Below are positions 8,047 to 21,913 of a stretch of DNA of 64,000 nt, piece after piece. This stretch comes from Cardiobacteriaceae bacterium TAE3-ERU3. GTDB taxonomy: Bacteria; Pseudomonadota; Gammaproteobacteria; Cardiobacteriales; Cardiobacteriaceae. A program made the translations under genes and the position numbers. The notes under the pieces were generated by a model. The model made no database searches. It saw only the letters and a list, made by a program, of their open reading frames with translations, and was not told where the DNA came from. Positions within the stretch are counted from its first letter, which is position 1, and the number at the start of each line of letters is the position of its first letter. Where the stretch lies: positions 62,001 through 126,000 of the forward strand of contig JAHUUI010000004.1 in assembly GCA_019218315.1 (NCBI GenBank), in the 5' to 3' direction.

Positions 8047-8131
8047 CGGATTGCTGGCGCTATACTGAAGAAAGGCTAAAAGGGATATTCAAAAAAGCAA
8101 TATGCTTTCCTTCTTCAGTTCCAGCAATCCG
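8047..8131 (+). promoter_or_regulatory. Long inverted-repeat leader upstream of metN
   Basis: CGGATTGCTGG (8047-8057) pairs perfectly with CCAGCAATCCG (8121-8131), and ACTGAAGAA (8064-8072) pairs with TTCTTCAGT (8111-8119). The two stems are nested, separated by a 6-versus-1-base internal loop and closing a 38-base A-rich apical region. The structure ends 36 bases before the metN start. I see no MetJ box (AGACGTCT) or SAM-I core here, so this may be an unclassified regulatory leader. Confidence 0.6.
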
Positions 8132-8167
8132 TGCAATCAGTATCATTCATACAAGCATGACGGAACG

Positions 8168-9202
8168 ATGATTAAACTTTCCAACATCAGTAAAACATAC
8201 ACCCACAAGGGCAAGACCATCCATGCTCTGCGCGGCGTTGATCTTGACGTACAGGCTGGGCAAATTTATGGCGTGGTCGGGCAAAGTGGCGCCGGCAAAA
8301 GTACCTTAATTCGCTGCGTAAACTTGCTCGAGCGCCCAACCACTGGCTCAGTATTCGTTGACGGCAAAGATTTAACCGCAATGAACGATCGTCAGTTGCT
8401 CAAGGCACGCCACGACATCGGCATGATTTTCCAACACTTCAACCTGCTTTCTAGCCGTACGGTATTTGACAATATCGCACTGCCGCTTGAGCTGATCGGC
8501 ACACGCCGCAAAGTAATCAAGGAAAAGGTCAAATCGTTACTCGCTTTGACTGGCCTTGAAGACAAAGCGCGCCACTATCCGGCGCAACTGTCCGGCGGCC
8601 AAAAGCAGCGCGTCGCGATCGCCCGCGCACTCGCCAGTGATCCAAAAGTACTGCTTTCAGACGAAGCAACTTCTGCGCTCGACCCCAAAACGACCGAATC
8701 CATTCTCGAATTGCTGCGCGACATCAACGCCAAGCTCGGCTTGACCATCTTGATGATCACCCACGAGATGGAAGTAGTGAAAAAGATTTGCCACCGCGTC
8801 GCACTGATCGAAGGTGGTGAACTGGTCGAGAGTAACGACGTCGATGCGTTCTTCTCTAATCCGCAGTCCGAACTGGGCCAAAAATTCGTCGCGCAAATTC
8901 AGCAATTTGACCTGCCGCCGCTTTACGCCAATCGCGTCAAGCCACAAGGTAGCCATCCGCTAGTCAAGCTCGCCTTCCACGGCGACAACATTGAAAAGCC
9001 ATTGCTATCGCACCTGACCCGGGCATTTGATCTCGACGTCAGCATTATTCAGGCAAAAATCGAGCACATTCACACCAGCAACATCGGCTTGCTGATCGTC
9101 GAACTCGAAGGCACACCTGAACAAAATGACGCAGCTATTGCCTATCTGCGCGAACAACCGATTGAACTGGAGGTACTCGGTTATGTCGAGCCAACTCTTT
9201 AA
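8168..9202 (+). CDS. metN: Methionine ABC transporter, ATP-binding protein MetN
   Basis: 344 residues. Powers D/L-methionine import with MetI and MetQ. Shows Walker A (GQSGAGKST), signature LSGGQKQRVAIARAL, Walker B VLLSDEATSALDP and H-loop ITHEM. The C-terminal NIL domain (about 265-344) senses methionine and inhibits transport in the E. coli protein. An upstream in-frame ATG at 8102 would add 22 residues, but those codons lie in the inverted-repeat leader and the family starts MIKLSNISK, so I use 8168. Its 3' end overlaps metI by 20 bases. Confidence 0.96.
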   Translation: MIKLSNISKTYTHKGKTIHALRGVDLDVQAGQIYGVVGQSGAGKSTLIRCVNLLERPTTGSVFVDGKDLTAMNDRQLLKARHDIGMIFQHFNLLSSRTVFDNIALPLELIGTRRKVIKEKVKSLLALTGLEDKARHYPAQLSGGQKQRVAIARALASDPKVLLSDEATSALDPKTTESILELLRDINAKLGLTILMITHEMEVVKKICHRVALIEGGELVESNDVDAFFSNPQSELGQKFVAQIQQFDLPPLYANRVKPQGSHPLVKLAFHGDNIEKPLLSHLTRAFDLDVSIIQAKIEHIHTSNIGLLIVELEGTPEQNDAAIAYLREQPIELEVLGYVEPTL

Positions 9203-9839
9203 TATTTTACTCAGCGCGACCGGCGATACACTGTATATGGTCGGCGTCAGCGCCCTGCTCAGCGCCCTGTTTGGTATTCCACTCGGCGTGGTTCTCTACA
9301 TCACACGCAAAGGCAAATTCTTTGCCAACCCGTGGATCAACTATCCGCTCGGCACGATCGTCAACATCGGGCGCTCGATTCCGTTCATTATTTTGATCCT
9401 CTACATCATTCCGTTTACCAAGCTACTGGTTGGCACGTTTATCGGCAATACCGCCGCAATCGTACCCCTTACAATCAGCGCGATTCCGTTTGTTGCGCGT
9501 ATGGTTGAAGGCGTACTGATCGAAGTACCCGGTGGCCTGGTCGAAGCTGCGCAGTCAATGGGTGCAACGCCAATGCAGATCATCAATAAGGTGCTGCTTG
9601 CTGAGGCGCGTCCGGGCATCATTAACGCCATGACCATCACCATTATCGGCCTGATCGGTTACTCGGCAATGGCCGGTGCGGTCGGTGCAGGCGGTCTCGG
9701 TAAAGTCGCCATTTCTTACGGCTACCAGCGCTATAACGTTGAAATTATGAACTATACCGTCATCATCCTTGTTCTGATGGTGCAAGGCGTACAAAGTCTC
9801 GGCGATTTCCTCGCCAAACGTGCGGACCGCCGCAGCTGA
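9183..9839 (+). CDS. metI: Methionine ABC transporter permease MetI
   Basis: 218 residues, about five to six membrane helices, inner membrane. The EAA loop that contacts MetN is EAAQSMGATPMQIINKVLLAEARPGI in full (about residues 120-145). I start at 9183 (MSSQLFN) because GGAGG lies about 10 bases upstream inside metN; the in-frame ATG at 9126 is inside the NIL domain coding region. The gene overlaps metN and precedes metQ by 22 bases. Confidence 0.96.
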   Translation: MSSQLFNILLSATGDTLYMVGVSALLSALFGIPLGVVLYITRKGKFFANPWINYPLGTIVNIGRSIPFIILILYIIPFTKLLVGTFIGNTAAIVPLTISAIPFVARMVEGVLIEVPGGLVEAAQSMGATPMQIINKVLLAEARPGIINAMTITIIGLIGYSAMAGAVGAGGLGKVAISYGYQRYNVEIMNYTVIILVLMVQGVQSLGDFLAKRADRRS

Positions 9840-9861
9840 TTCATCAATTGAGGACATAACC

Positions 9862-10644
9862 ATGAAAGCACTCACCACTATCGTACTTGCTGCACTCACG
9901 CTATCAAGCCTATCGGCACAGGCTGATCCATTTCGCGTCGGCGGCATGAGCGGTAAAGAATCCGATCTGCTTTACGCCGCACAAAAAGTGGCCAAAGAGC
10001 GCTACGGACTCGACGTCGAAGTTGTCGAATTTTCCGATTACTTCACCCCAAATGCCGCACTCGATGAAGGCTCAATTGACGCCAATGCCTATCAGCATGA
10101 GCCTGGTTTGCGTGCGATCATGGAATCACGTAACTTCGACTTTGTGCCGGTTGGAAACACCTTTGTTTACCCGATTGGCGCGTACAGCCACACCATCAAG
10201 AGCATTGACGAACTCAAAGACGGCGCAACCATTGCCATCCCCAATGATCCATCAAACAGCGCTCGTACCCTTATTTTGATGCACGAACACGGTCTAATTA
10301 AAGTCAAGGACCCAAGCAACCTCACTTTATCTGTACTCGACATCACGGAAAACCCGCATAACTACGACATCAAAGAAGTCGATGCGGCTCAATTGCCACG
10401 TGTGCTAGACGAAGTTGATATGGCATTCATCAACTCTAACTACGCCGTCGATGCTGGCTTACAGCCTACCAAAGACGCTGTTTTGCGCGAATCCGAGCAA
10501 TCACCTTACGTCAATATCATCGTCGTGCGTACAGAAGACGCTGATAAAGATGAAGTTAAAAAATTCGTTCAGGCATATCAAAGTGACGAAGTAGAGCAAG
10601 CTGCTGATGCAGCATTTAAAGGAGCCGCCGTCAAAGGCTGGTAA
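9862..10644 (+). CDS. metQ: Methionine-binding protein MetQ, first copy
   Basis: 260 residues, NlpA/MetQ family periplasmic substrate-binding protein. The signal peptide MKALTTIVLAALTLSSLSAQA has no lipobox Cys, unlike E. coli MetQ, so the protein should be soluble in the periplasm. The mature domain has the family patterns GSIDANAYQH, FVYPIGAYS, IPNDPSNSARTL, ENPHNYDIKEVDAAQLPR and FINSNYAVDAGL. The RBS TTGAGGACATAACC precedes the ATG. A second copy follows 50 bases later; the two proteins look about 70% identical by eye. Confidence 0.93.
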   Translation: MKALTTIVLAALTLSSLSAQADPFRVGGMSGKESDLLYAAQKVAKERYGLDVEVVEFSDYFTPNAALDEGSIDANAYQHEPGLRAIMESRNFDFVPVGNTFVYPIGAYSHTIKSIDELKDGATIAIPNDPSNSARTLILMHEHGLIKVKDPSNLTLSVLDITENPHNYDIKEVDAAQLPRVLDEVDMAFINSNYAVDAGLQPTKDAVLRESEQSPYVNIIVVRTEDADKDEVKKFVQAYQSDEVEQAADAAFKGAAVKGW

Positions 10645-10694
10645 CCAAACACTTAACCAACACACTATTGTTCATTTACTATCAAGGAGCATTT

Positions 10695-11480
10695 ATGAAC
10701 GCTTTTAAAACACTATCACTGGCCATTGTTGCCGCACTGAGTACTTCAGCTTTCGCTGCTGACGCATTCAAAGTCGGCACCATGAGCGGCAAAGAAGCCA
10801 ACCTCGTCTATGCAGCCAAAGACGTTGCCAAAGAGAAGTTCGGCCTCGACGTTGAAGTCGTAGAATTCGACGATTACGTCACCCCAAACATCGCTTTGGC
10901 TGATGGCTCAATTGACGCCAACGCATTCCAGCACGGCCCATACCTTGACGCAATGGTCAAAGAGCGCGGTTTTGATCTGGTTGCAGTCGGTAACACCTTT
11001 GTCTACCCAATCGGCGCGTACAGCAACAAAATCGAAAACATCGAAGACCTGCAAGACGGCGCATCAATTGCCATTCCAAATGACCCTTCAAATGGTGCAC
11101 GTACGTTGATCCTGATGGACAAAAGTGGCCTGATCAAGCTCAATGACAACACCAACCTTGAAGCATCTGTGCTCGATATCGCTGAAAATGAGCACAACTA
11201 CGACATCAAGGAAGTTGACGCAGCCCAGCTGCCACGCGTCCTTGACGAAGTAGACGTTGCGTTCATCAACTCAAACTACGCCGTTGACGCAGGCTTGACT
11301 CCGACTGACGACGCAATCCTGCGTGAAGACGAAGATTCACCATATGTGAACCTGATCGTTGTTCGTGCTGGCGATGAAGACAAAGAAGCGGTCAAGCAGT
11401 TCGTTGAAGCATACCAAACTGAAGCAGTAGAAGAAGCTGCTGAAGAAGCATTCAAGGGTGCTGCGGTCAAAGGCTGGTAA
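10695..11480 (+). CDS. metQ: Methionine-binding protein MetQ, second copy
   Basis: 261 residues, tandem paralogue of the preceding gene, with signal peptide MNAFKTLSLAIVAALSTSAFA and again no lipobox. It keeps the same ligand-site blocks (FVYPIGAYS, IPNDPSNGARTL, FINSNYAVDAGL) and the same C-terminus AAVKGW, so it arose by duplication. Differences cluster in surface segments, and this copy is more acidic (LREDEDSPY, EEAAEEAF). AAGGAGC is a strong RBS. The two copies may differ in ligand (L- versus D-methionine or sulfoxide); that is inference. Confidence 0.93.
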   Translation: MNAFKTLSLAIVAALSTSAFAADAFKVGTMSGKEANLVYAAKDVAKEKFGLDVEVVEFDDYVTPNIALADGSIDANAFQHGPYLDAMVKERGFDLVAVGNTFVYPIGAYSNKIENIEDLQDGASIAIPNDPSNGARTLILMDKSGLIKLNDNTNLEASVLDIAENEHNYDIKEVDAAQLPRVLDEVDVAFINSNYAVDAGLTPTDDAILREDEDSPYVNLIVVRAGDEDKEAVKQFVEAYQTEAVEEAAEEAFKGAAVKGW

Positions 11481-12231: not shown

Positions 12232-12834
12232 CTACAAGGTTTTTACACCAAAGGTTACTCTCACGATCGTCGTCATCATACACATCGACGCATAACCATA
12301 AGCCAGCGCTGCAAACCATTGTGGAAAGATGCACATCAGCACGAAGCAGGCAATAGTTTCCGCCCCCTCCGTCAGCCCCCCAAGATAGTAAAAACCCTTA
12401 TTCGGATAATCGAGGCTGGCGAGCTTTTGCTTTTCAGCCATGATCGCAAAAGCGAGAAAGCTGCACCCAGTGCCAAAAAAGCTGAACAGCAGCACTGCGG
12501 CCGGCAAGGCATTGTGCAGCGGATCAGCAAGGGCAAAGCCAAGTACTACGCCGGCATAAAAAATAAAATCAAGCGTAATATCGAGAAACGCACCCTTATC
12601 CGTGACGCCATTCAGGCGCGCCAGCGCGCCATCCAGACTGTCGCCAATGCGGTTAAGCAATATAAACACAACCGCCAGCCAATAGTGCTGTGTAGCTATC
12701 AGCACCACTGCTACTGCGCCACAGGCGAAGCCAGCCCATGTCATCATATCTGCCGAAACATTGGCGCGCTGTAAGCGCCGTGCGGCGGCCTGACGATAGC
12801 GTTCACTGTGGGTAATAAGGAAGTGGTCAATCAT
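12232..12834 (-). CDS. ynjF: CDP-alcohol phosphatidyltransferase family protein YnjF
   Basis: 200 residues, inner membrane. The catalytic pattern is DSLDGALARLNG...GAFLDITLD, the D-x2-DG-x2-AR...G-x3-D-x3-D signature of enzymes that move a CMP-linked phosphatidyl group onto an alcohol. The segment FYYLGGLTEGAETI and the C-terminal MTTIVRV resemble E. coli YnjF as I recall it. The alcohol substrate is unknown. I start at 12834 because AGGA sits 8 bases upstream; an ATG at 12843 would add MAI. It overlaps the ynjD end by 8 bases and is the last gene of the six-gene operon. Confidence 0.88.
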   Translation of the reverse strand: MIDHFLITHSERYRQAAARRLQRANVSADMMTWAGFACGAVAVVLIATQHYWLAVVFILLNRIGDSLDGALARLNGVTDKGAFLDITLDFIFYAGVVLGFALADPLHNALPAAVLLFSFFGTGCSFLAFAIMAEKQKLASLDYPNKGFYYLGGLTEGAETIACFVLMCIFPQWFAALAYGYASMCMMTTIVRVTFGVKTL

Positions 12835-13471
12835 GATAGCCATCCTGATTCAGGTGAATAATGCGCCCATTTGCCGGTACATCCTGCGGATCATGACTGA
12901 CCATCAATACCGGTATATCAGCCTGCGCAATGTGCGCAAAGACAAATTCACGGAAACGGCCGCGCAAGTCGTGATCGAGGGACGAAAAAGGCTCATCGAG
13001 CAGCAGCGCTTGTGGTTCGCACAACAGCGCGCGCAAGACGCTAACCCGCGCTTGCTGCCCGCCAGACAGCGTTGCAGGATCTCGGTGATAAAAGTCGCTC
13101 AGTTCGGCCTGTGCCAATGCAGCTTTGGCACGTTCACGGCGCTGGCTTAAACTACCGTACCGCCCAGGGATCGCGAGCAATAAGTTCTGCCCGACGCTCA
13201 GATGCGCAAACAGCAGTGGCGCTTGCAGCAAAATCGCCATACGCCGCTGCTCGGTTGGTAAATGGTCGCGGCGCTCATCGTTGAGCCACAATTCACCATC
13301 GCCGCGCAAAGCCTCCGGTAATGCGCCAATCATCCAATTGAGCAAGCTCGATTTACCGCTGCCCGACGGCCCCATCAACGCCAAGACCTCACCCGCCGCA
13401 ACGCGGAACGACAGTGGCGCAAACATCGCTTTATCGTCGCGGTAAATTGCCGCATTTTTTACTTCCAACAT
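12827..13471 (-). CDS. ynjD: ABC transporter ATP-binding protein YnjD
   Basis: 214 residues. Walker A GPSGSGKSS, Q-loop ILLQAP, signature LSGGQQARVS, Walker B ALLLDEPFSSLD and switch histidine VSHDPQD are all intact, so it should be an active ATPase. Short ATPase without a C-terminal regulatory domain, as in the thiamine/iron-type import family. Its ATG at 13471 shares one base with the ynjC stop. Partner of YnjC and YnjB. Confidence 0.92.
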   Translation of the reverse strand: MLEVKNAAIYRDDKAMFAPLSFRVAAGEVLALMGPSGSGKSSLLNWMIGALPEALRGDGELWLNDERRDHLPTEQRRMAILLQAPLLFAHLSVGQNLLLAIPGRYGSLSQRRERAKAALAQAELSDFYHRDPATLSGGQQARVSVLRALLCEPQALLLDEPFSSLDHDLRGRFREFVFAHIAQADIPVLMVSHDPQDVPANGRIIHLNQDGYHD

Positions 13472-15129
13472 TAATCCAGCTCCCGCCTTTTACGCCCAAT
13501 CCACAAGCTGATCATCAATAATCCGAGAAAGACCAGTGCAGGCAATAGCCACTGTACAAAAGCCTGCACCGCTTGTGCGCGCAGATTCCCCCCGCTGGCA
13601 AGTGCCACAGCTTGTGTGGTCACAGTGTGAAAGCGCCCTGCACCGCTGTATAGCGTCGGTAAATATTGCGCAACGCTGACCGAAAATCCGATCGCACATG
13701 CAGCCAGTACCGGACGCACCAGTAGCGGCCAGCGCACCAGCAATGCCAAGCGCCAGCTATACAACCCCAAGCTGCGCGCAATAAGCTGCAAGCGCGGATC
13801 GAGATGCTGATAAGCCGGCGCTAGCACCAGCAGCATGTATGGCACGACCCACAGCAAATGCGTCCACACCACGCCGATAAATGTACCGTCCAAGCCTATG
13901 CGCAAAAGTAAATCATACTGCCCGATCACCAGCGGTAAAGCAGGCAACAGCAGCGGCAACCACACCAAGCGATTAAAGCGTGCCATACCTGCATCGAGCC
14001 ATAGCATCAGCAGTAGCAATGCGATCAATGTTGAGCACACAGCGAGGTTAAATGTGGTTGCCAGCAGCGACCAATCTGCGTGTTGCCAATTAGCCAACGT
14101 CCACGTTTTTGGCAATAAAGCCGGATAGAACCACGCTCCTGCCAACGACCACAGCAGCAAGATCAGCAGAACAGCAATGCCACTGCCATTTAATAGTATT
14201 GAAGTCAGCCGCCCTGCCCAACCCAATCGCCAACTGATGCGCCGCCCGGAAAATGGGAACAGCGTACGGCGTAATACTTGCCAAAGTAACCACGCGCTAC
14301 TGGCAAAAGCGATCATCAGTAACACCAATAAAAACATCGCGGTCATGCCCATCTCACGCATCACTGGTGAAGAATGATTGATCCACTGCCACGCCAGCAC
14401 CGCCAAAGTGGGCGGATTATTCGGCCCGACCAGCAAAGCAATATCGACCACCGCGATTGAATACGCGGTCGTCGCCAGCAATGCCCAACCCATACGCGGC
14501 AATAATTGTGGCACTAACACGAATACAAACGCCTGCAAGCGCCCGTAGCCCATGCTGCGCATCACCAAGAGTTGACTATGCAATCCTTGCTGCTGTAGCT
14601 GTGCAGCAGCAACCCAGAGCAAAAACCAGCTTTCGCGCAGTGCCAGCACGATACCCAAGCCGATACCATTCCCATCACGCATATCCGGCCACACACTGCG
14701 CCAATCAAGCCCAACTGCATACAGCACACGCACCAGCGTACCACTCGGCATCCATAGAAAGAACAAACCAACCGCAAAGGCGATATGCGGCAAAGCGAGA
14801 AAAAACGGCAAGCGCCGCTGGTGGCGCTGCCAACGCTGACCAGGATAAAACGCCAGTAACACCAACAAGCAAATCAGTAGCGCACCGCTATTGGATACCA
14901 GCGTAGAAATCAGTGTCGCGATCAGCGCTGGCGCGAATTGATTATCTGCAAACAATGCTGACCACGCCCCCGCATGCGACACTTGCCACAAGCCATAGAC
15001 CATTGGCAAGCACACCACTGCCATGGCTATACCCGCCACCGCAATCAGAGGCTTACGCTTCAAATCGTATTGAGTAAACACATTGCGCAGCAAAATGGCT
15101 TTCTCATCTTTTGTGCTTATGCTGCACAA
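13471..15129 (-). CDS. ynjC: ABC transporter permease YnjC (double-domain)
   Basis: About 552 residues, two fused permease halves like ThiP and FbpB, around 12 membrane helices. Each half has an EAA-type loop (MRSMGYGRLQAFVFVLVPQL near 190 and ARSLGLYSWRLALLVRWPLL near 455). No ATG is near the N-terminus: candidates are TTG 15129, TTG 15093 (upstream GAGAAAG) and GTG 15081. The first hydrophobic helix begins at PLIAVAGIAMAVV, so any of these gives a full protein; the start is uncertain by up to 16 residues. Six bases separate it from ynjB. Confidence 0.9.
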   Translation of the reverse strand: MCSISTKDEKAILLRNVFTQYDLKRKPLIAVAGIAMAVVCLPMVYGLWQVSHAGAWSALFADNQFAPALIATLISTLVSNSGALLICLLVLLAFYPGQRWQRHQRRLPFFLALPHIAFAVGLFFLWMPSGTLVRVLYAVGLDWRSVWPDMRDGNGIGLGIVLALRESWFLLWVAAAQLQQQGLHSQLLVMRSMGYGRLQAFVFVLVPQLLPRMGWALLATTAYSIAVVDIALLVGPNNPPTLAVLAWQWINHSSPVMREMGMTAMFLLVLLMIAFASSAWLLWQVLRRTLFPFSGRRISWRLGWAGRLTSILLNGSGIAVLLILLLWSLAGAWFYPALLPKTWTLANWQHADWSLLATTFNLAVCSTLIALLLLMLWLDAGMARFNRLVWLPLLLPALPLVIGQYDLLLRIGLDGTFIGVVWTHLLWVVPYMLLVLAPAYQHLDPRLQLIARSLGLYSWRLALLVRWPLLVRPVLAACAIGFSVSVAQYLPTLYSGAGRFHTVTTQAVALASGGNLRAQAVQAFVQWLLPALVFLGLLMISLWIGRKRRELD

Positions 15130-15135
15130 AAGAAC

Positions 15136-16329
15136 CTATGACGCGCCATAGCGCTGAGTCCACTGTTCGCGCAGCCAGTCCATCCACGCCGCATTTGGCT
15201 CACTGATGACCGGGACTTGTGACGCTTCAGAGGGTGACGCCGCTTTTAAGGCCGCCTGTTCCCCACCTTCAAGCTTATTCGCATCGAGAACCGTCGGATC
15301 GCCCCACACACTGACGTCCGCTTTATGCGCCTGAGCCTGCGGCGAAAGCAGGAAATTGGCCACGACCATTGCGCCATCAGCATTACTCGCATTGCGCGGG
15401 ATAGCGACGAAATGCACATTACCAATCATGCCGTCCGCAAAACCAAAGGTATAGACCGACTCCGGTAACTTACCACTCTGTACCTGATTTTGCGCATGCA
15501 GCGGATTAAAGGTAATCGACATGGCCAGCTCACCATCACCAAGCATGCGATCCATTTCGCTGGGTGACGTCGGGAATGCTTTGCCCTCTCGCCACAGTAA
15601 CGGATGCAATTGATCGAGATACGCCCAAAGTGGCGCTGTTAAAGCTTCCGCGTCAGTATCTTGTGGCGCTTGCTCAAAAGCTGCCGGATCTTCGGCCAAC
15701 GACAGCATCAGCTGCTTGAGGAAGGTTGTGCCGGTAAAATCTGGCGGGCGAGGATAGCTCAGCATGCCTTGATGGTCTTGTGCGTAAGCCAGCAAAGCTT
15801 GCGGGCTGGTCAGCGGTTCTGCGAGGGTATCGCGGTTGCCGATAAAGGTCAGCTGTGCGCCGCCCCACGGGGCTTCCGCACCATCGGTTGGCAAGGAAAA
15901 GTCCTTCTCAACCGGTTTGCTCAAGTCGACATACTGCCAGTTCGGCAACTGCTGCGCCCAGCCCTCAAGCAACAAGCCCTGCTTTTTCAGTGCCGCGAAG
16001 TTCTCACCGTTAATCCACACCAAATCGACCGAACCATTATCAGCCTTACCTGCGGCTACCTCGGTTTCGATACGGCGAATGGTGTCCTTAATATCCGAAA
16101 TCGGCACCACTTCGAGCGTCACGCCGTACTGATCTTGCACCTGCTCTGCCGCCCAAACGAGATACTGATTGGTCGCTTCGTTGCCGCCCCATGCGTTGAA
16201 GTAAACCGTCTCGCCTTTGGCGTGTTGTAGAACATCATCCCAGTTAATCGCTGTATTTTGCGCTGTTGCTGCCATACTTGTCACAAGGCAAGCCGTTGCC
16301 AACAAGCCCTTTTTCCATACTTTCGTCAT
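15136..16329 (-). CDS. ynjB: Periplasmic binding protein YnjB
   Basis: 397 residues, extracellular solute-binding protein family 1 type (COG4134). Signal peptide MTKVWKKGLLATACLVTSMAATA, then VYFNAWGGNEATNQYLVWA, a typical opening of this family. I start at 16329, not 16425, because GGGGGA stands 5 bases before this ATG and the signal peptide begins here; the longer frame adds 32 non-signal residues. The ligand of YnjBCD is not established; thiamine or a sulfur compound has been suggested from homology. It has 95 bases of non-coding DNA upstream. Confidence 0.92.
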   Translation of the reverse strand: MTKVWKKGLLATACLVTSMAATAQNTAINWDDVLQHAKGETVYFNAWGGNEATNQYLVWAAEQVQDQYGVTLEVVPISDIKDTIRRIETEVAAGKADNGSVDLVWINGENFAALKKQGLLLEGWAQQLPNWQYVDLSKPVEKDFSLPTDGAEAPWGGAQLTFIGNRDTLAEPLTSPQALLAYAQDHQGMLSYPRPPDFTGTTFLKQLMLSLAEDPAAFEQAPQDTDAEALTAPLWAYLDQLHPLLWREGKAFPTSPSEMDRMLGDGELAMSITFNPLHAQNQVQSGKLPESVYTFGFADGMIGNVHFVAIPRNASNADGAMVVANFLLSPQAQAHKADVSVWGDPTVLDANKLEGGEQAALKAASPSEASQVPVISEPNAAWMDWLREQWTQRYGAS

Positions 16330-16424
16330 AAATCCCCCATATGGTGTTATTTTTCCATGAAAACAATTAGACGTAATATTGCCGGAAAATCTTACAACAG
16401 CTTTTATAAAATCCCAGTCAATCA

Positions 16425-17495
16425 TTAAGCCTGCATACTACGCAAATACTGATTGTCGAGATAATTTTTCCACCACCCACACCAGCGGCCTTGTGCGCTG
16501 TAGCCACGCCACGACATAAATGCGCCGCCTTTGCCGTCAGCAAGCAGTGCCAAGGCGTTGGGTTGTGGGGAGTATTCAAGCAATGGCTTGCCGCTTAATG
16601 CGTGAGACAAGTTTTCAGCAAGGATACTCCCTTGGCGCACCGCATAAACGCCGCTTTTATCTGCACCACTCAAGCTGGCGCAGTCACCGGCGGCAAAGAC
16701 ATTTGCGTGTGAGATGCTTTGCAAGGTCGAGCGAATACGGACAAACCCTCTATCATCAAGCGCCAAGCCACTATTGCGATAAAAAGGCTGCGCAGCTGCA
16801 CCTGTGGTAAGGATAAAGCAGCTAGCATTACTTATCTTTTGCTGATTTACGTAAGCGCCATCTGCTGCCAAATGGTTGATTGGTGCATGCTCGATCAAGG
16901 TAATACCGTTATGAACCAATGCTTTGCACACTTTCTCGCGCAAGTTGGCAAGCTGCTCGGGCAATATTTTGCCGCTACTGATCAAAGTTATATCGGGCAT
17001 GGTTTGTGCCAACGCCAAAGCGAGTTCAACGCCTGCTGCACCGCCGCCAATCACGGCAATCGGCTCGGGCTGCTGTCGCCAATGCTCAATACCGGCAACA
17101 AACGCATCAAATGGTTTAACGCCAAGTACGTCCGTATCTGCTTCAATCTGTTCCGGCGTGCGCAATGCTGCACCAGTATCAAATGACACAACTCGCCCTT
17201 GCCAGGATCCGTTATCGCTGCTGATCAAACGTTGTGCGGCATCAAAGCCATGTACGCTACCTATCACCAATTCAATGTCGAGGCGCTGACACAGTGCGGC
17301 AATATCCACGCTGCAATCATCCAACTCGGCACGACCAGCCAGCCAAGCTGGCAAGCGCCCTGAATAGTAGCCGTGCGGTGAAGGCATGATCAGGGCAATT
17401 GTGCCAGTCGGCCGCTGCTGCTTGCGCAACCACTCACGCATTGCAACTAGATGCGCATGCCCACCGCCAATCAGTAGTAAATCAGCCTGCTTCAT
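16425..17495 (-). CDS. FAD/NAD(P)-dependent oxidoreductase of the SelD-associated type
   Basis: 356 residues. The N-terminal FAD site is LLIGGGHAHL, a GGGHAH form that I know from flavoproteins fused to selenide water dikinase (SelD) and from NDH-2-like proteins. The NAD site is VIGGGAAGVELALALA (about 148-163), and the second FAD motif is VFAAGDCAS (about 267). It lacks a redox-active CxxxxC pair. The C-terminus (SWRGYSAQGRWCGWWKNYLD) matches the end of that family. Its ATG overlaps the preceding fusion gene by 4 bases, so both are made together. Electron donor and acceptor are unknown. Confidence 0.8.
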   Translation of the reverse strand: MKQADLLLIGGGHAHLVAMREWLRKQQRPTGTIALIMPSPHGYYSGRLPAWLAGRAELDDCSVDIAALCQRLDIELVIGSVHGFDAAQRLISSDNGSWQGRVVSFDTGAALRTPEQIEADTDVLGVKPFDAFVAGIEHWRQQPEPIAVIGGGAAGVELALALAQTMPDITLISSGKILPEQLANLREKVCKALVHNGITLIEHAPINHLAADGAYVNQQKISNASCFILTTGAAAQPFYRNSGLALDDRGFVRIRSTLQSISHANVFAAGDCASLSGADKSGVYAVRQGSILAENLSHALSGKPLLEYSPQPNALALLADGKGGAFMSWRGYSAQGRWCGWWKNYLDNQYLRSMQA

Positions 17496-19627
17496 TTACC
17501 CAAGCGCCATTGCTGAAACTTTTCCAACCACTGCATGGTACGCGGTGATAAATGCGCTTTTTTCCACTCACCAGCGGCGTATTTATTGGCTTCACCATAG
17601 CTTGGGTATGGGCGAATAGTTTTGAGCAAGCTACCAAGGCCTTTACCGTTGTGTATCGCAGTGACGTAGTCATTGATCAGCTCACCAGCATGCGCGCCGA
17701 CAATGGTTGCACCAAGGATGCGGTCATTCCCTTTGGCGGTGAGCACCTTGATAAAGCCAATGGTTGCGCCATCGGTAATCGCGCGGTCGAGGTCGTCCAG
17801 ATCGTACTGCGTCACTTCATATTTAATGCCATCGACCTGCGCCTGCACTTCTGTCAGCCCGACTTGCGCAATTTCAGGGTCGGTATAAACCGTCCACGGC
17901 AAAGTGCGGTAACTGACGCGGAAAGATTTGAAGCTGCCAAACAGCGCATTGACCACCGCATGCCATGCCTGATGCGCAGCAGCATGAGTGAACTGATACG
18001 GGCCAGTGACGTCGCCAACGGCATAAATATGCGGCATACGCGTGGCAAGAAAATCATCAGTTTGCAGGGTAGCATTGTCACGCAATGCCAATCCCAAGGT
18101 TTCACGCCCCCAGCCGTCGACATTTGCCTGTCGTCCAGTGGCAAGCAGCACGCGATCATATGCCATTGTATGCTCATTGCCTTCTCTATCGCGGCAACGC
18201 AAGGTTTGTGCATCATCAAATGCCACAGTGTGATAGCCGAGGCGTACATCAACCCCTTCATCTGTTAATGCCTGCGCCAATAGTGCGCTGGTTCCATGAT
18301 CAGCTTGTGGTAATAAATGCTCATCGCGCTGCACCAGCGTGACTTGCGAACCGAGGCGCTGAAATGCTTGTGCCAATTCGCAGCCGACCGCCCCGCCGCC
18401 AATCACCAATAAGCGCTGTGGCTGCTCACGAATCGTCCACACCGTTTCGCTGGTGAGATAATCTACTTGCTCGATACCGTCTATCTTTGGGATACGTGGT
18501 TTAGCCCCGGTGGCAATGATGATGGATTTAGCAGTCAACTTGTCGCCATTGACGGCAACCGTCCACGGGTCGAGTAGCGCTGCTCTGCCTTTGATAACCT
18601 CGACACCGAGCCGTTCATAACGCTCAACTGAGTCATGCGGCTCAATACGCGTAATTGCTTGCTGAACCCGATCCATCACAGCCGCAAAATCCACTTCTGC
18701 TGTGGCATTGCGCCAGCCAAGTTTGTCTGCTTGGCGTAAGGTTTGGGCAACACTGGCACTTTTGAGCAAGGTTTTCGACGGCACACAACCGGTATTGAGG
18801 CAATCACCACCCATCTCCCCCACTTCGATCAGCGTCACTTTGGCTTTGAGTACCGCGCCAATATACGCACTGACCAATCCGCCTGCTCCGGCACCAATCA
18901 CAATCAGATGGCGATCAAACTGCTTGGGCTTTTGCCAACCTTTTAACACGCTACGACGCCGGTAAATATTAAGTATCTTTTTCGACAGTAGCGGCAATAA
19001 ACCAAGCAAGGAAAAGGCGAACAACATCCGCGGCGAGACGATACCCGACAGTGAATCAAGCGTGGCAAAGGTACGGCCTGCATTGACGTAGACCATCGTC
19101 GCCGGCAGCATGCCGACAAAGCTGATCCACATGAATGTCCATGTACGCAGTGTGGACAAGCCAATTAACAGATTGACGATAAAAAACGGAAAGATCGGAA
19201 TCATACGCAAGGTAAAGAGATAAAACGCACCATCACGCTCAATACCTTGGTTAACCGCTCGCCACTGCCGCGCAAAGCGGTGCTGCACTTTGTCGCGCAA
19301 TACATAGCGGCTAAATAACATCGCCACAGTTGCGCCCAAAGTCGCACCACAAATCACCAGCAAACTGCCCAGCCACAAGCCAAATAGTGCTCCGCCAAGC
19401 AAAGTAAGTACCGTCGCAACCGGGATCGACAAAGCAGTCACGATCACATACAGCAATACAAACCCACCAACGGTCACTACCGGGTGTTTATCGACCAAAG
19501 CGTGCAAATTGCCCAGTACGTCCTGTAACGAAGCCAAATTGAGATAGCGTTGCCCAGCCCATAGACCTAATCCGAGCACAATAATCAGCAGCAACCATAC
19601 GCCGTATTTCCTAACAAAATGCAACAT
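17492..19627 (-). CDS. TVP38/VTT membrane domain fused to MerA-like disulfide reductase
   Basis: 711 residues in two parts. Residues 1-215 form a TVP38/TMEM64 (VTT, DedA-like) membrane domain with about six helices, including LTLLGGALFGLWLGSLL and FTLRMIPIFPFFIVNLLIG. Residues 240-711 are a class I flavin disulfide reductase: FAD site VIGAGAGGLVSA, redox pair GGDCLNTGCVPSK (C276, C281), NAD site VIGGGAVGCELAQAF and AVGDVTG. The HPT..E motif of lipoamide dehydrogenases reads RPYPSYGE, so the catalytic His is Tyr, as in mercuric reductase-like members; no C-terminal Cys pair for Hg(II) is present. Such fusions exist in other proteobacteria. First gene of the operon. Confidence 0.9.
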   Translation of the reverse strand: MLHFVRKYGVWLLLIIVLGLGLWAGQRYLNLASLQDVLGNLHALVDKHPVVTVGGFVLLYVIVTALSIPVATVLTLLGGALFGLWLGSLLVICGATLGATVAMLFSRYVLRDKVQHRFARQWRAVNQGIERDGAFYLFTLRMIPIFPFFIVNLLIGLSTLRTWTFMWISFVGMLPATMVYVNAGRTFATLDSLSGIVSPRMLFAFSLLGLLPLLSKKILNIYRRRSVLKGWQKPKQFDRHLIVIGAGAGGLVSAYIGAVLKAKVTLIEVGEMGGDCLNTGCVPSKTLLKSASVAQTLRQADKLGWRNATAEVDFAAVMDRVQQAITRIEPHDSVERYERLGVEVIKGRAALLDPWTVAVNGDKLTAKSIIIATGAKPRIPKIDGIEQVDYLTSETVWTIREQPQRLLVIGGGAVGCELAQAFQRLGSQVTLVQRDEHLLPQADHGTSALLAQALTDEGVDVRLGYHTVAFDDAQTLRCRDREGNEHTMAYDRVLLATGRQANVDGWGRETLGLALRDNATLQTDDFLATRMPHIYAVGDVTGPYQFTHAAAHQAWHAVVNALFGSFKSFRVSYRTLPWTVYTDPEIAQVGLTEVQAQVDGIKYEVTQYDLDDLDRAITDGATIGFIKVLTAKGNDRILGATIVGAHAGELINDYVTAIHNGKGLGSLLKTIRPYPSYGEANKYAAGEWKKAHLSPRTMQWLEKFQQWRLGK

Positions 19628-19876: not shown

Positions 19877-19960
19877 ATGAATCCAATTCTTCGCTCACTG
19901 GGTTGGCTACTGCTGGCCGGTGTTATTTTCATTCCTTCTTGTATCACCATTTTTAACTGA
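19877..19960 (+). CDS. 27-codon hydrophobic ORF coupled to xpaC
   Basis: Below the usual size cut-off. ATG at 19877, stop TGA at 19958-19960 overlapping the xpaC ATG as TGATG. The product, MNPILRSLGWLLLAGVIFIP then SCITIFN, has one predicted membrane helix and a Cys near its end. No Shine-Dalgarno precedes it (only TTTATAAAA), nor does xpaC have one, so xpaC may depend on translation of this ORF. The 249 bases before it hold no other gene. It could be a true small membrane protein or a coupling leader. Confidence 0.45.
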   Translation: MNPILRSLGWLLLAGVIFIPSCITIFN

Positions 19961-20856
19961 TGCTGAAAAAATTCCTAGACGGCTTAAAAATTCAACACCT
20001 CAGCTTGCGTGGCAGTAGCCTATATTTGATGCAGGCGCCACTGTGGTTGGCTGTGCCTATTTCCCTGTTTCGTGGGCAGCTGCTTAAATCAGCCGCATTG
20101 GCAATGGTGATCGCTTGTATTACTTATGGCGCAAACCTGACCCGCCGCTACTATCTGCAAAAGCGTGACCAAATTCTGCTCGGTAAAGCAGATATGCCCA
20201 TCCGTGACGAACGAAAAATAGCGATGGGCTTTATTTGCCTCGGTGTTTTTATATTGTCTGTATTTGCCACACGCCGCGTCATGCCGGTTGGTCTGATTGC
20301 CACAGCACTCGCAGCACTCGGCTATTACCTGAATTACCTTGCCGAACCTTATCACGCTCCAGATGTCGATGAACATGGCGACATCGTTGTCGAGGTCAAA
20401 GAGGAAGATGAAGAGATTGAAGAAGCAAATCTCTCTCCGACGCTGCGCAGCATGCTCACCAACGCCCGTGAATATCTTGGCCGTATCACTCAAGCAAGCA
20501 CACTGCTCGCAGACAGCGAACGAGACCAATATATCTACACAAGATTGAAGCAGATTTTACGCCGGGGCAATGCCTTGATCGGCGAACTCGGTAAGGATGG
20601 CAACCGTGTTCGTGAGGCGCGCACCCTACTGGTGGTGCACTTACCCGAGCTTGCAGACATCAGCACGACATACAGCACTGCCAATAATGCTGAAAAAGAC
20701 CAATCCCGACAGCAATTCAGCGCATTATTGGATACAATACACGATCAATTGACCGCTCACTACCGCAACATCAGCGACATGGATCAGCAGCGGCTCAGTA
20801 TCCAAATGGACGTCCTGCAAGAACAATTGGAGCAGCTTCGACAAGATGAGCGATAA
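19960..20856 (+). CDS. XpaC-family membrane protein
   Basis: 298 residues, 5-bromo-4-chloroindolyl phosphate hydrolysis (XpaC) family. It has two membrane regions, about residues 27-58 and 67-115 by hydropathy, then an acidic stretch (VVEVKEEDEEIEEAN) and a soluble alpha-helical C-terminal part with LRSMLTNAREYLGRIT and LRRGNALIGELGKDG. XpaC and TelA are regularly encoded side by side; their exact biochemical role is unknown despite the names. It overlaps telA by 11 bases. The N-terminus follows the TGATG junction with the tiny ORF. Confidence 0.8.
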   Translation: MLKKFLDGLKIQHLSLRGSSLYLMQAPLWLAVPISLFRGQLLKSAALAMVIACITYGANLTRRYYLQKRDQILLGKADMPIRDERKIAMGFICLGVFILSVFATRRVMPVGLIATALAALGYYLNYLAEPYHAPDVDEHGDIVVEVKEEDEEIEEANLSPTLRSMLTNAREYLGRITQASTLLADSERDQYIYTRLKQILRRGNALIGELGKDGNRVREARTLLVVHLPELADISTTYSTANNAEKDQSRQQFSALLDTIHDQLTAHYRNISDMDQQRLSIQMDVLQEQLEQLRQDER

Positions 20857-21913
20857 ACATACAGATCTCGACAACACTACGCTGGACTCACAAAAAGTCG
20901 CACAGATAGCAAAAGAAATCGACCTCAACAGCAGCCAGAATATTCTGGATTTTGGCTGCGATGCCCAGCGCAATTTAACGCACATCGCAGATGACATGCT
21001 CAGCGACGTCAAAAGCAAAGACAGCGGCGAAGCCGGGCAACTACTTAACCAAATGGTATCGCTGATGCGCGGTTTTCAAGGCAGTGAAAAAACGCTTGCC
21101 AAAAAGCCCGGATTCCTCGCACGCCTGACGGGCAAAAAGCAATCAATTGAGCATTTTTTTCAGCGCTTTGATAGCGTTAGCGATCAGATCGATCAAATCA
21201 GCAACCACCTCGAAGTGCAAAAGCAGCAATTACTGATCGATATTAAATCACTTGATCGCCTATATGATGCAAACCTCGAATACTACCGTGAGCTTTGCCA
21301 CTACATTGCAGCAGCCGAAGCAGTACTCAAACGCAGCGATGAAGAAACCCTGCCTGAGATGAAGCAGAAAGCACTCGACAGTGACGACATTGCAGCAGCC
21401 CAGCGTTTGCGCGATTATCAAGGCCACCACGATGAGCTCGCCCGTCGCCTGCACGACTTACAGCTCACCCGCCAAGTTGCAATGCAAAACTTGCCAAGCA
21501 TTCGCCTGCTGCAAGAAAACGACAAAGGATTGGTTAATAAAATCAATACTACCTTGATCAATACAGTACCGCTATGGCGTCAGCAGCTTGCCCAAGCTAT
21601 TGCTATTCATCATGCACAAGACGCCAGCGATGCACTCAAAGCCAGTGCCGATCTGACCAATGAATTACTCAAACAAAATGCCGCTAATCTGAAAATGGCC
21701 AACAAAACCAGCCAAACGCAAATTGAGCGTGGTGTTTTTGACATCGAGAGTATCGAACGCGCCAACCGTAGCCTGATTGAAACCATTGAAGAAAGCATTA
21801 CCCTGCACGAGCAAGCACGTTCGCAACGCCACGAGGCCATCACCAAGCTCAATGAAGCAGAAGCCGCATTAAAAACCGCCCTTACCAACGCCAGTAACAG
21901 CCAAAAAGTCTAA
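20846..21913 (+). CDS. telA: TelA/KlaA-family toxic anion resistance protein
   Basis: 355 residues, TelA family (tellurite and antimicrobial tolerance in plasmid RP4 and Listeria). Largely helical, with the family core LDRLYDANLEYYRELCHYIAA, MQNLPSIRLLQENDKGLVNKI and TVPLWRQQLAQAIAI, and a lysine-rich GFLARLTGKK segment near 90. No signal peptide or membrane helix, so it is cytoplasmic. TelA proteins are linked to envelope-stress and ter-type gene sets. It lies 4 bases before the Band7/GYF gene. Confidence 0.92.
   Translation: MSDKHTDLDNTTLDSQKVAQIAKEIDLNSSQNILDFGCDAQRNLTHIADDMLSDVKSKDSGEAGQLLNQMVSLMRGFQGSEKTLAKKPGFLARLTGKKQSIEHFFQRFDSVSDQIDQISNHLEVQKQQLLIDIKSLDRLYDANLEYYRELCHYIAAAEAVLKRSDEETLPEMKQKALDSDDIAAAQRLRDYQGHHDELARRLHDLQLTRQVAMQNLPSIRLLQENDKGLVNKINTTLINTVPLWRQQLAQAIAIHHAQDASDALKASADLTNELLKQNAANLKMANKTSQTQIERGVFDIESIERANRSLIETIEESITLHEQARSQRHEAITKLNEAEAALKTALTNASNSQKV

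Follow-up and report, generated by a model that had tools for sequence, protein, structure and literature searches.

Among the closest known counterparts of the gene set considered here is the Escherichia coli locus ydjX-ydjY-ydjZ-ynjA-ynjB-ynjC-ynjD-ynjE, with ynjF convergent to it, where a YnjBCD importer, YnjF and TVP38 proteins are found together. The ynjBCDE region is widespread in E. coli, with matches in 5232 of 5426 genomes, and no tested function for it was found in the literature searched; E. coli YnjB appears in one review's table of polyamine-type transporters. Additionally, the fusion of a COG0398 DedA domain with a pyridine nucleotide reductase has already been described as a common domain fusion (PMC10127716), in passages that give neither a gene neighbourhood nor a function for it. 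Here, we analyzed a 64,000-nucleotide window from Cardiobacteriaceae bacterium TAE3-ERU3 (GCA_019218315.1, contig JAHUUI010000004.1, positions 62,001 to 126,000), in which six minus-strand open reading frames (ORFs; positions 12232-19627 of the window) join a fusion protein of that kind with a second flavoprotein, YnjBCD and YnjF. A full-text literature search covering ynjB/C/D, ynjF, ydjX/ydjZ, TVP38, ArsS and bufferin returned no paper on this linkage. In order of transcription, the features are the following.

17492-19627, minus strand: TVP38/VTT-reductase fusion, 711 amino acids; VTT part encoded by 18953-19627, flavin reductase part with the fold of MerA and lipoamide dehydrogenase (LPD) by 17492-18952
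16425-17495, minus strand: flavoprotein of the type found N-terminal to SelD, 356 amino acids; GGGHAH flavin adenine dinucleotide (FAD) motif, no SelD domain
16330-16424, minus strand: gap of 95 bases between the flavoprotein gene and ynjB; a consensus scan detected no promoter- or terminator-like site there
15136-16329, minus strand: YnjB, predicted exported substrate-binding protein, 397 amino acids; ATG start at 16329
13471-15129, minus strand: YnjC, double-length ATP-binding cassette (ABC) permease, 552 amino acids; TTG start at 15129
12827-13471, minus strand: YnjD, ABC ATPase, 214 amino acids
12232-12843, minus strand: YnjF, CDP-alcohol phosphatidyltransferase, 203 amino acids

We consider it very probable that these six genes form a real functional unit. 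The fusion and flavoprotein genes overlap by 4 bases (17492-17495), YnjB and YnjC are separated by 6 bases, YnjC and YnjD overlap by 1 base at 13471, and YnjD and YnjF overlap by 17 bases (12827-12843). Across the operon region, promoter- and terminator-like sites were no commoner than in shuffled sequences and none lay in the 95-base gap, so that transcription of the six genes as one unit is plausible. A first, sequence-only reading of this DNA had described six closely spaced genes of one strand with the domains named above, and had compared them with the TVP38 genes ydjX and ydjZ lying next to ynjABCDEF in E. coli. The ORFs, their junctions and the profile hidden Markov models agree with the former, and the latter comparison is correct. 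Both loci combine the importer, YnjF and TVP38 proteins, whereas E. coli lacks the fused reductase and the SelD-type flavoprotein, and the window operon lacks ynjA, ydjY and ynjE.

The recurrence of the linkage was quantified in an evenly drawn set of 398 Pseudomonadota genomes (sample 1), of which 51 had YnjB above cut-off and 58 a full-length fusion, defined by matches of more than 600 bits; several fusion homologues with in-frame stops were taken, unchecked, as adjacent separate genes. The fusion and YnjB occurred together in 21 genomes against 7.4 expected (hypergeometric P of 4e-7, uncorrected for relatedness), and their coordinates placed them at most 10 kb apart in 16 of these 21. Furthermore, among 80 loci from named organisms, ynjBCD, with or without ynjF, accompanied the fusion, and often the flavoprotein as well, in Craterilacuibacter, Allopusillimonas, Hydrogenophaga, Limnohabitans, Polaromonas, Rhizobacter and Acidovorax, and in roughly twelve other genomes stand-alone relatives of the flavoprotein adjoined the fusion. 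Chance clustering of the six genes is rejected by this recurrence. The link between the flavoproteins and ynjB is thus not peculiar to this genome, and the earlier claim of a linkage conserved at a distance with changing partners is borne out in many families and on mobile plasmids.

The evidence that the six genes act as a single unit that has spread horizontally is good. The identical order, fusion-FAD-B-C-D-F, exists on enterobacterial plasmids (e.g., the IncC plasmid pYDC637 and the IncR plasmid NZ_CP092394) with 44-60% protein identity to the window. Copies of the operon at least 99% identical to one another are carried by 24 plasmids from Klebsiella, Salmonella, Providencia, Escherichia and Citrobacter; 20 of these plasmids are predicted to be conjugative and 21 hold at least 80% of the operon. 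Of 5426 complete E. coli genomes, 3 have the operon, each time plasmid-borne. The plasmid islands share their gene order with the window but differ in their flanks, as illustrated by the conjugative plasmid pYDC637 (plasmid positions 140670-175969, L222): a bufferin cluster precedes the operon, sigma, AhpD-like, HAD and SulP genes follow it, a Tn3-family transposase and a recombinase adjoin the SulP gene, and copies of IS4321 are present on either side. The window operon itself looks acquired because ynjB is absent from the 11 other genomes of its family and present in 1 of 20 genomes from elsewhere in the order; its base composition does not depart from that of its surroundings. In the fusion tree, a group of six (support 99) unites the window protein with the plasmid fusion and with ArsS-linked fusions of the pseudomonad side. 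Mapping ynjB on this tree requires 11 changes, of which 7 or more fall on branches with good support, and therefore the association between fusion and ynjB was made or lost repeatedly. On a plasmid of Paracoccus aestuarii (L131, 13853-15536), ynjC seems interrupted, with a 909-base permease gene and, in the preceding stretch, a hypothetical ORF on the reverse strand.

The fusion protein matched VTT_dom (PF09335) with 88 bits, above the gathering score of 33.9, Pyr_redox_2 with 211 and Pyr_redox_dim with 95, and among solved structures its best relatives are enzymes of the mercuric and lipoamide types. The reductase part carries CxxxxC at GGDCLNTGCVPSK and Tyr-Glu (PYPSYGE) close to the C-terminus, so the His-Glu acid-base pair found there in LPD and glutathione reductase is missing. 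The position of the catalytic His, where a solved LPD chain reads HPHPT, is a Tyr, as in mercuric reductase, and the Tyr is kept in all rows but one of the fusion-cluster alignment (55 rows, including one MerA-like row and the window protein twice). Because of this replacement the fusion is not a typical disulfide reductase, and the label given to it initially is not supported. With MerA it shares the fold, CxxxxC and the Tyr, but it scores 367 bits on TIGR02053, below the curated cut-off of 454, lacks the C-terminal vicinal Cys pair (its C-terminus ends ...RTMQWLEKFQQWRLGK) and has the extra TVP38 domain; it also scores with the RclA profile. Hence, although not filed as MerA, the reductase would be expected from its residues to work like a MerA-type enzyme on an electrophile or metal-like substrate.

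The remaining proteins differ in how closely they fit known families. The flavoprotein scored 261 bits on TIGR03169 (Nterm_to_SelD), for which the curated cut-off is 310, and its relatives in similar neighbourhoods scored 287-369; by sequence it appears related to this family but outside the cut-off. A role as a thiol enzyme was rejected because the linked set has no conserved Cys. YnjB exceeded the NF008633 cut-off of 203 with 515 bits, and its AlphaFold model (predicted local distance difference test of 90.6) has the fold of solute-binding proteins, the best matches being those for aminoethylphosphonate-type, polyamine, sugar, sugar-phosphate and iron ligands. YnjC reached no family cut-off and is 52% identical to its plasmid homologue, and YnjD matched ABC_tran with 99 bits. 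YnjF scored 43 bits on PF01066 (gathering score 22), and 46 and 57 bits on the equivalogs for phosphatidyl- and archaetidyl-inositol phosphate synthases, below their cut-offs of 170 and 180. Its motif D-x2-DG-x2-AR-x7-G-x3-D-x3-D is intact, and across 89 aligned sequences it is invariant except for one residue in one sequence. Matches of YnjB and YnjF in a sequence search of solved structures were weak only.

The other main partner of the fusion is the arsenosugar set (ArsS, ArsM, TIGR04282, TIGR04283 and MtnP). This set shares the TVP38-reductase fusion and often the flavoprotein, and ArsS and YnjB alternate as companions of the fusion. Among the 58 fusion genomes of sample 1, ArsS was present in 25, YnjB in 21 and both in none (Fisher 1.3e-7); among 80 further fusion-bearing gammaproteobacterial genomes (sample 2), ArsS exceeded its cut-off in 60, YnjB was present in 7 and both again in none, giving 85, 28 and 0 over the 138 genomes. 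One family (f227) contains both states, with one ArsS genome and two YnjB genomes. This mutual exclusion is strong but not proven.

The same alternation is visible in individual loci. On an Acinetobacter plasmid, one run reads arsS-fusion-DUF547-TIGR04283-TIGR04282-ArsM-like-phosphate transporter, followed on the opposite strand by mtnP and a sterol-desaturase gene; Burkholderia glumae has a comparable locus. Loci of Pseudoalteromonas and Catenovulum (TonB receptor-fusion-DUF547-ynjBCD-ynjF-sterol desaturase) keep the outer genes, and YnjBCD and YnjF stand where ArsS and the transferases would. In other loci, which we take to be Halomonas-like and comamonad, ynjBCD is joined directly to TIGR04282/TIGR04283 and an APH-type kinase. 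In three sphingomonad loci (L109, L110 and L135) the order is flavoprotein-fusion-CNT-ynjF, with a full-length CNT nucleoside transporter and without YnjBCD. Both the CNT transporter and MtnP act on ribosides. ArsS itself was present in 11 of 72 fusion loci. In one locus (L107, 7912-8874), the gene immediately before the fusion encodes a radical S-adenosylmethionine (SAM) protein nearest to the Rv1681 family, not ArsS, and is itself preceded by TIGR04282, TIGR04283 and an ArsM-like gene. Genomes G070, G138 and G174 have weak radical SAM matches next to the fusion.

Taken together, we tentatively favour an explanation that casts the operon as an 'import' counterpart to the arsenosugar genes: it would take up an organic molecule resembling a riboside, reduce it and link it to lipid. 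YnjB would catch a small polar organic compound in the periplasm and YnjCD would import it; from the gene context, the substrate is probably riboside-like, perhaps an organoarsenical related to arsenosugars, such as a dimethylarsinoyl-riboside. With NAD(P)H, the MerA-like reductase anchored in the membrane and the other flavoprotein would then reduce the substrate or an associated metalloid group, YnjF would couple it, or an alcohol derived from it, to CDP-diacylglycerol, and the TVP38 domain could move the lipid product or an intermediate across the inner membrane. Each of these steps, from ABC import and NAD(P)H reduction to the coupling by YnjF and DedA-type lipid movement, is assigned by analogy with the respective family. 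Genomes with ArsS beside the same fusion gene would hold the 'make' version of the pathway. The many sugar and glycoside binders among the fold neighbours of the YnjB model lend weak support to a riboside-like substrate. Uptake plus reduction with a lipid enzyme, as first proposed for this DNA, is still the natural reading of the gene set, whereas the sulfur- or selenium-type substrate proposed with it is not borne out, the recurring partners being the arsenosugar biosynthesis set and bufferin (copper) clusters.

Several observations weigh against such an import pathway. In sample 2, YnjB is adjacent to the fusion in one (G496) of the seven genomes that have it, several of the seven being fragmented assemblies, and many YnjBCD loci lack both the fusion and any arsenosugar gene. 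Corrected for descent, the exclusion of ArsS and YnjB leaves 3-4 informative independent pairs, all in the expected direction and too few for significance. The fold search named no ligand for YnjB, with many matches tied at Z scores of 26-29, and the E. coli locus carries a rhodanese instead of a reductase. TIGR04282 and TIGR04283 are called 'arsenosugar' families from their neighbourhood and not from an assay. Unlike the arsenosugar set, the window's own genome has no ArsS (TIGR04167; best match E of 7.7e-5), TIGR04283 glycosyltransferase or ArsM above cut-off, and therefore any organoarsenical substrate would be imported ready-made.

A more specific version seems to us quite unlikely as it stands: YnjBCD, or CNT in sphingomonads, would import arsenosugars or arsenonucleosides made by other organisms and, together with the reductase and YnjF, convert them to arsenolipids of the membrane, a scavenging pathway that would take the place of the ArsS route and be spread by mobile elements. 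If the arsenic reading were true, it would imply a bacterial recycling of organoarsenicals into lipids carried by conjugative plasmids of cattle and human isolates. More generally, the defined partners and the alternation with ArsS and a nucleoside transporter reduce the candidates to a short ligand list, and make an old question tractable.

Among the alternatives, a response to metal or oxidant stress in the envelope survives best, as a possible though doubtful explanation. The MerA-like reductase and the flavoprotein would act at the membrane to render Cu(II), or a different metal or oxidant, harmless, YnjBCD and YnjF would restore a membrane component, and the arsenosugar link would reflect a general metal-resistance neighbourhood. 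Bufferins protect against copper (PMC12452194), and bufferin clusters (BufA, BufB, DUF2063-like and DoxX) of comamonads and of plasmids lead into ynjB or the fusion; in Burkholderia glumae, such a cluster runs into the fusion, with flavoprotein-TIGR04282-TIGR04283-mtnP beside it on the other strand. An extracytoplasmic function-type sigma factor, an AhpD-like protein, thioredoxin and CcdA also recur nearby, and the RclA and MerA profile scores of the reductase are compatible with this role. However, the surroundings of the window operon showed no bufferin genes, and the ABC importer, its replacement by CNT and the exclusion of ArsS are left unexplained.

A phospholipid head-group pathway free of metalloids is unlikely in our view. 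YnjBCD or CNT would import the alcohol for the YnjF transfer from CDP-diacylglycerol, TVP38 would flip the lipid, and fatty-acid hydroxylase, DUF547 and glycosyltransferases would tailor it. The most constant companion of ynjBCD is indeed ynjF, whether the fusion is present or absent, and an OlsE-like fatty-acid hydroxylase and the APH-type kinase recur in linked loci. According to PMC10127716, eukaryotic relatives of the DedA family are scramblases and some bacterial ones flippases. This pathway leaves the MerA-like reductase, the alternation with ArsS and the ArsM-like neighbours unaccounted for. Finally, a selenium (or sulfur) route, with YnjBCD importing a seleno- or thio-compound that the flavoproteins reduce to feed SelD, is improbable: the flavoprotein is of the N-terminus-of-SelD type, flavoprotein-SelD fusions (GGCGAKVG motif) adjoin ynjBCD in Hydrogenophaga flava and another comamonad (L137 near 14561-15685 and L148 near 18362-19489) and the window's genome has SelD, but this SelD is unfused and on another contig, just 2 of the 25 flavoproteins of the linked set carry a SelD domain, and the dominant partner set of the fusion is the arsenosugar genes.

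Outside the operon, two further groups of plus-strand genes were noted in the window. At 19960-21913, divergent from the operon, a gene for an XpaC-type protein (PF10112, 'Halogen_Hydrol') precedes one for a TelA toxic-anion-resistance protein (PF05816, 331 bits). At 8102-11480, MetN- and MetI-like ABC genes are followed by two similar tandem binding-protein genes (9820-10644 and 10668-11480), which resemble MetQ paralogues.

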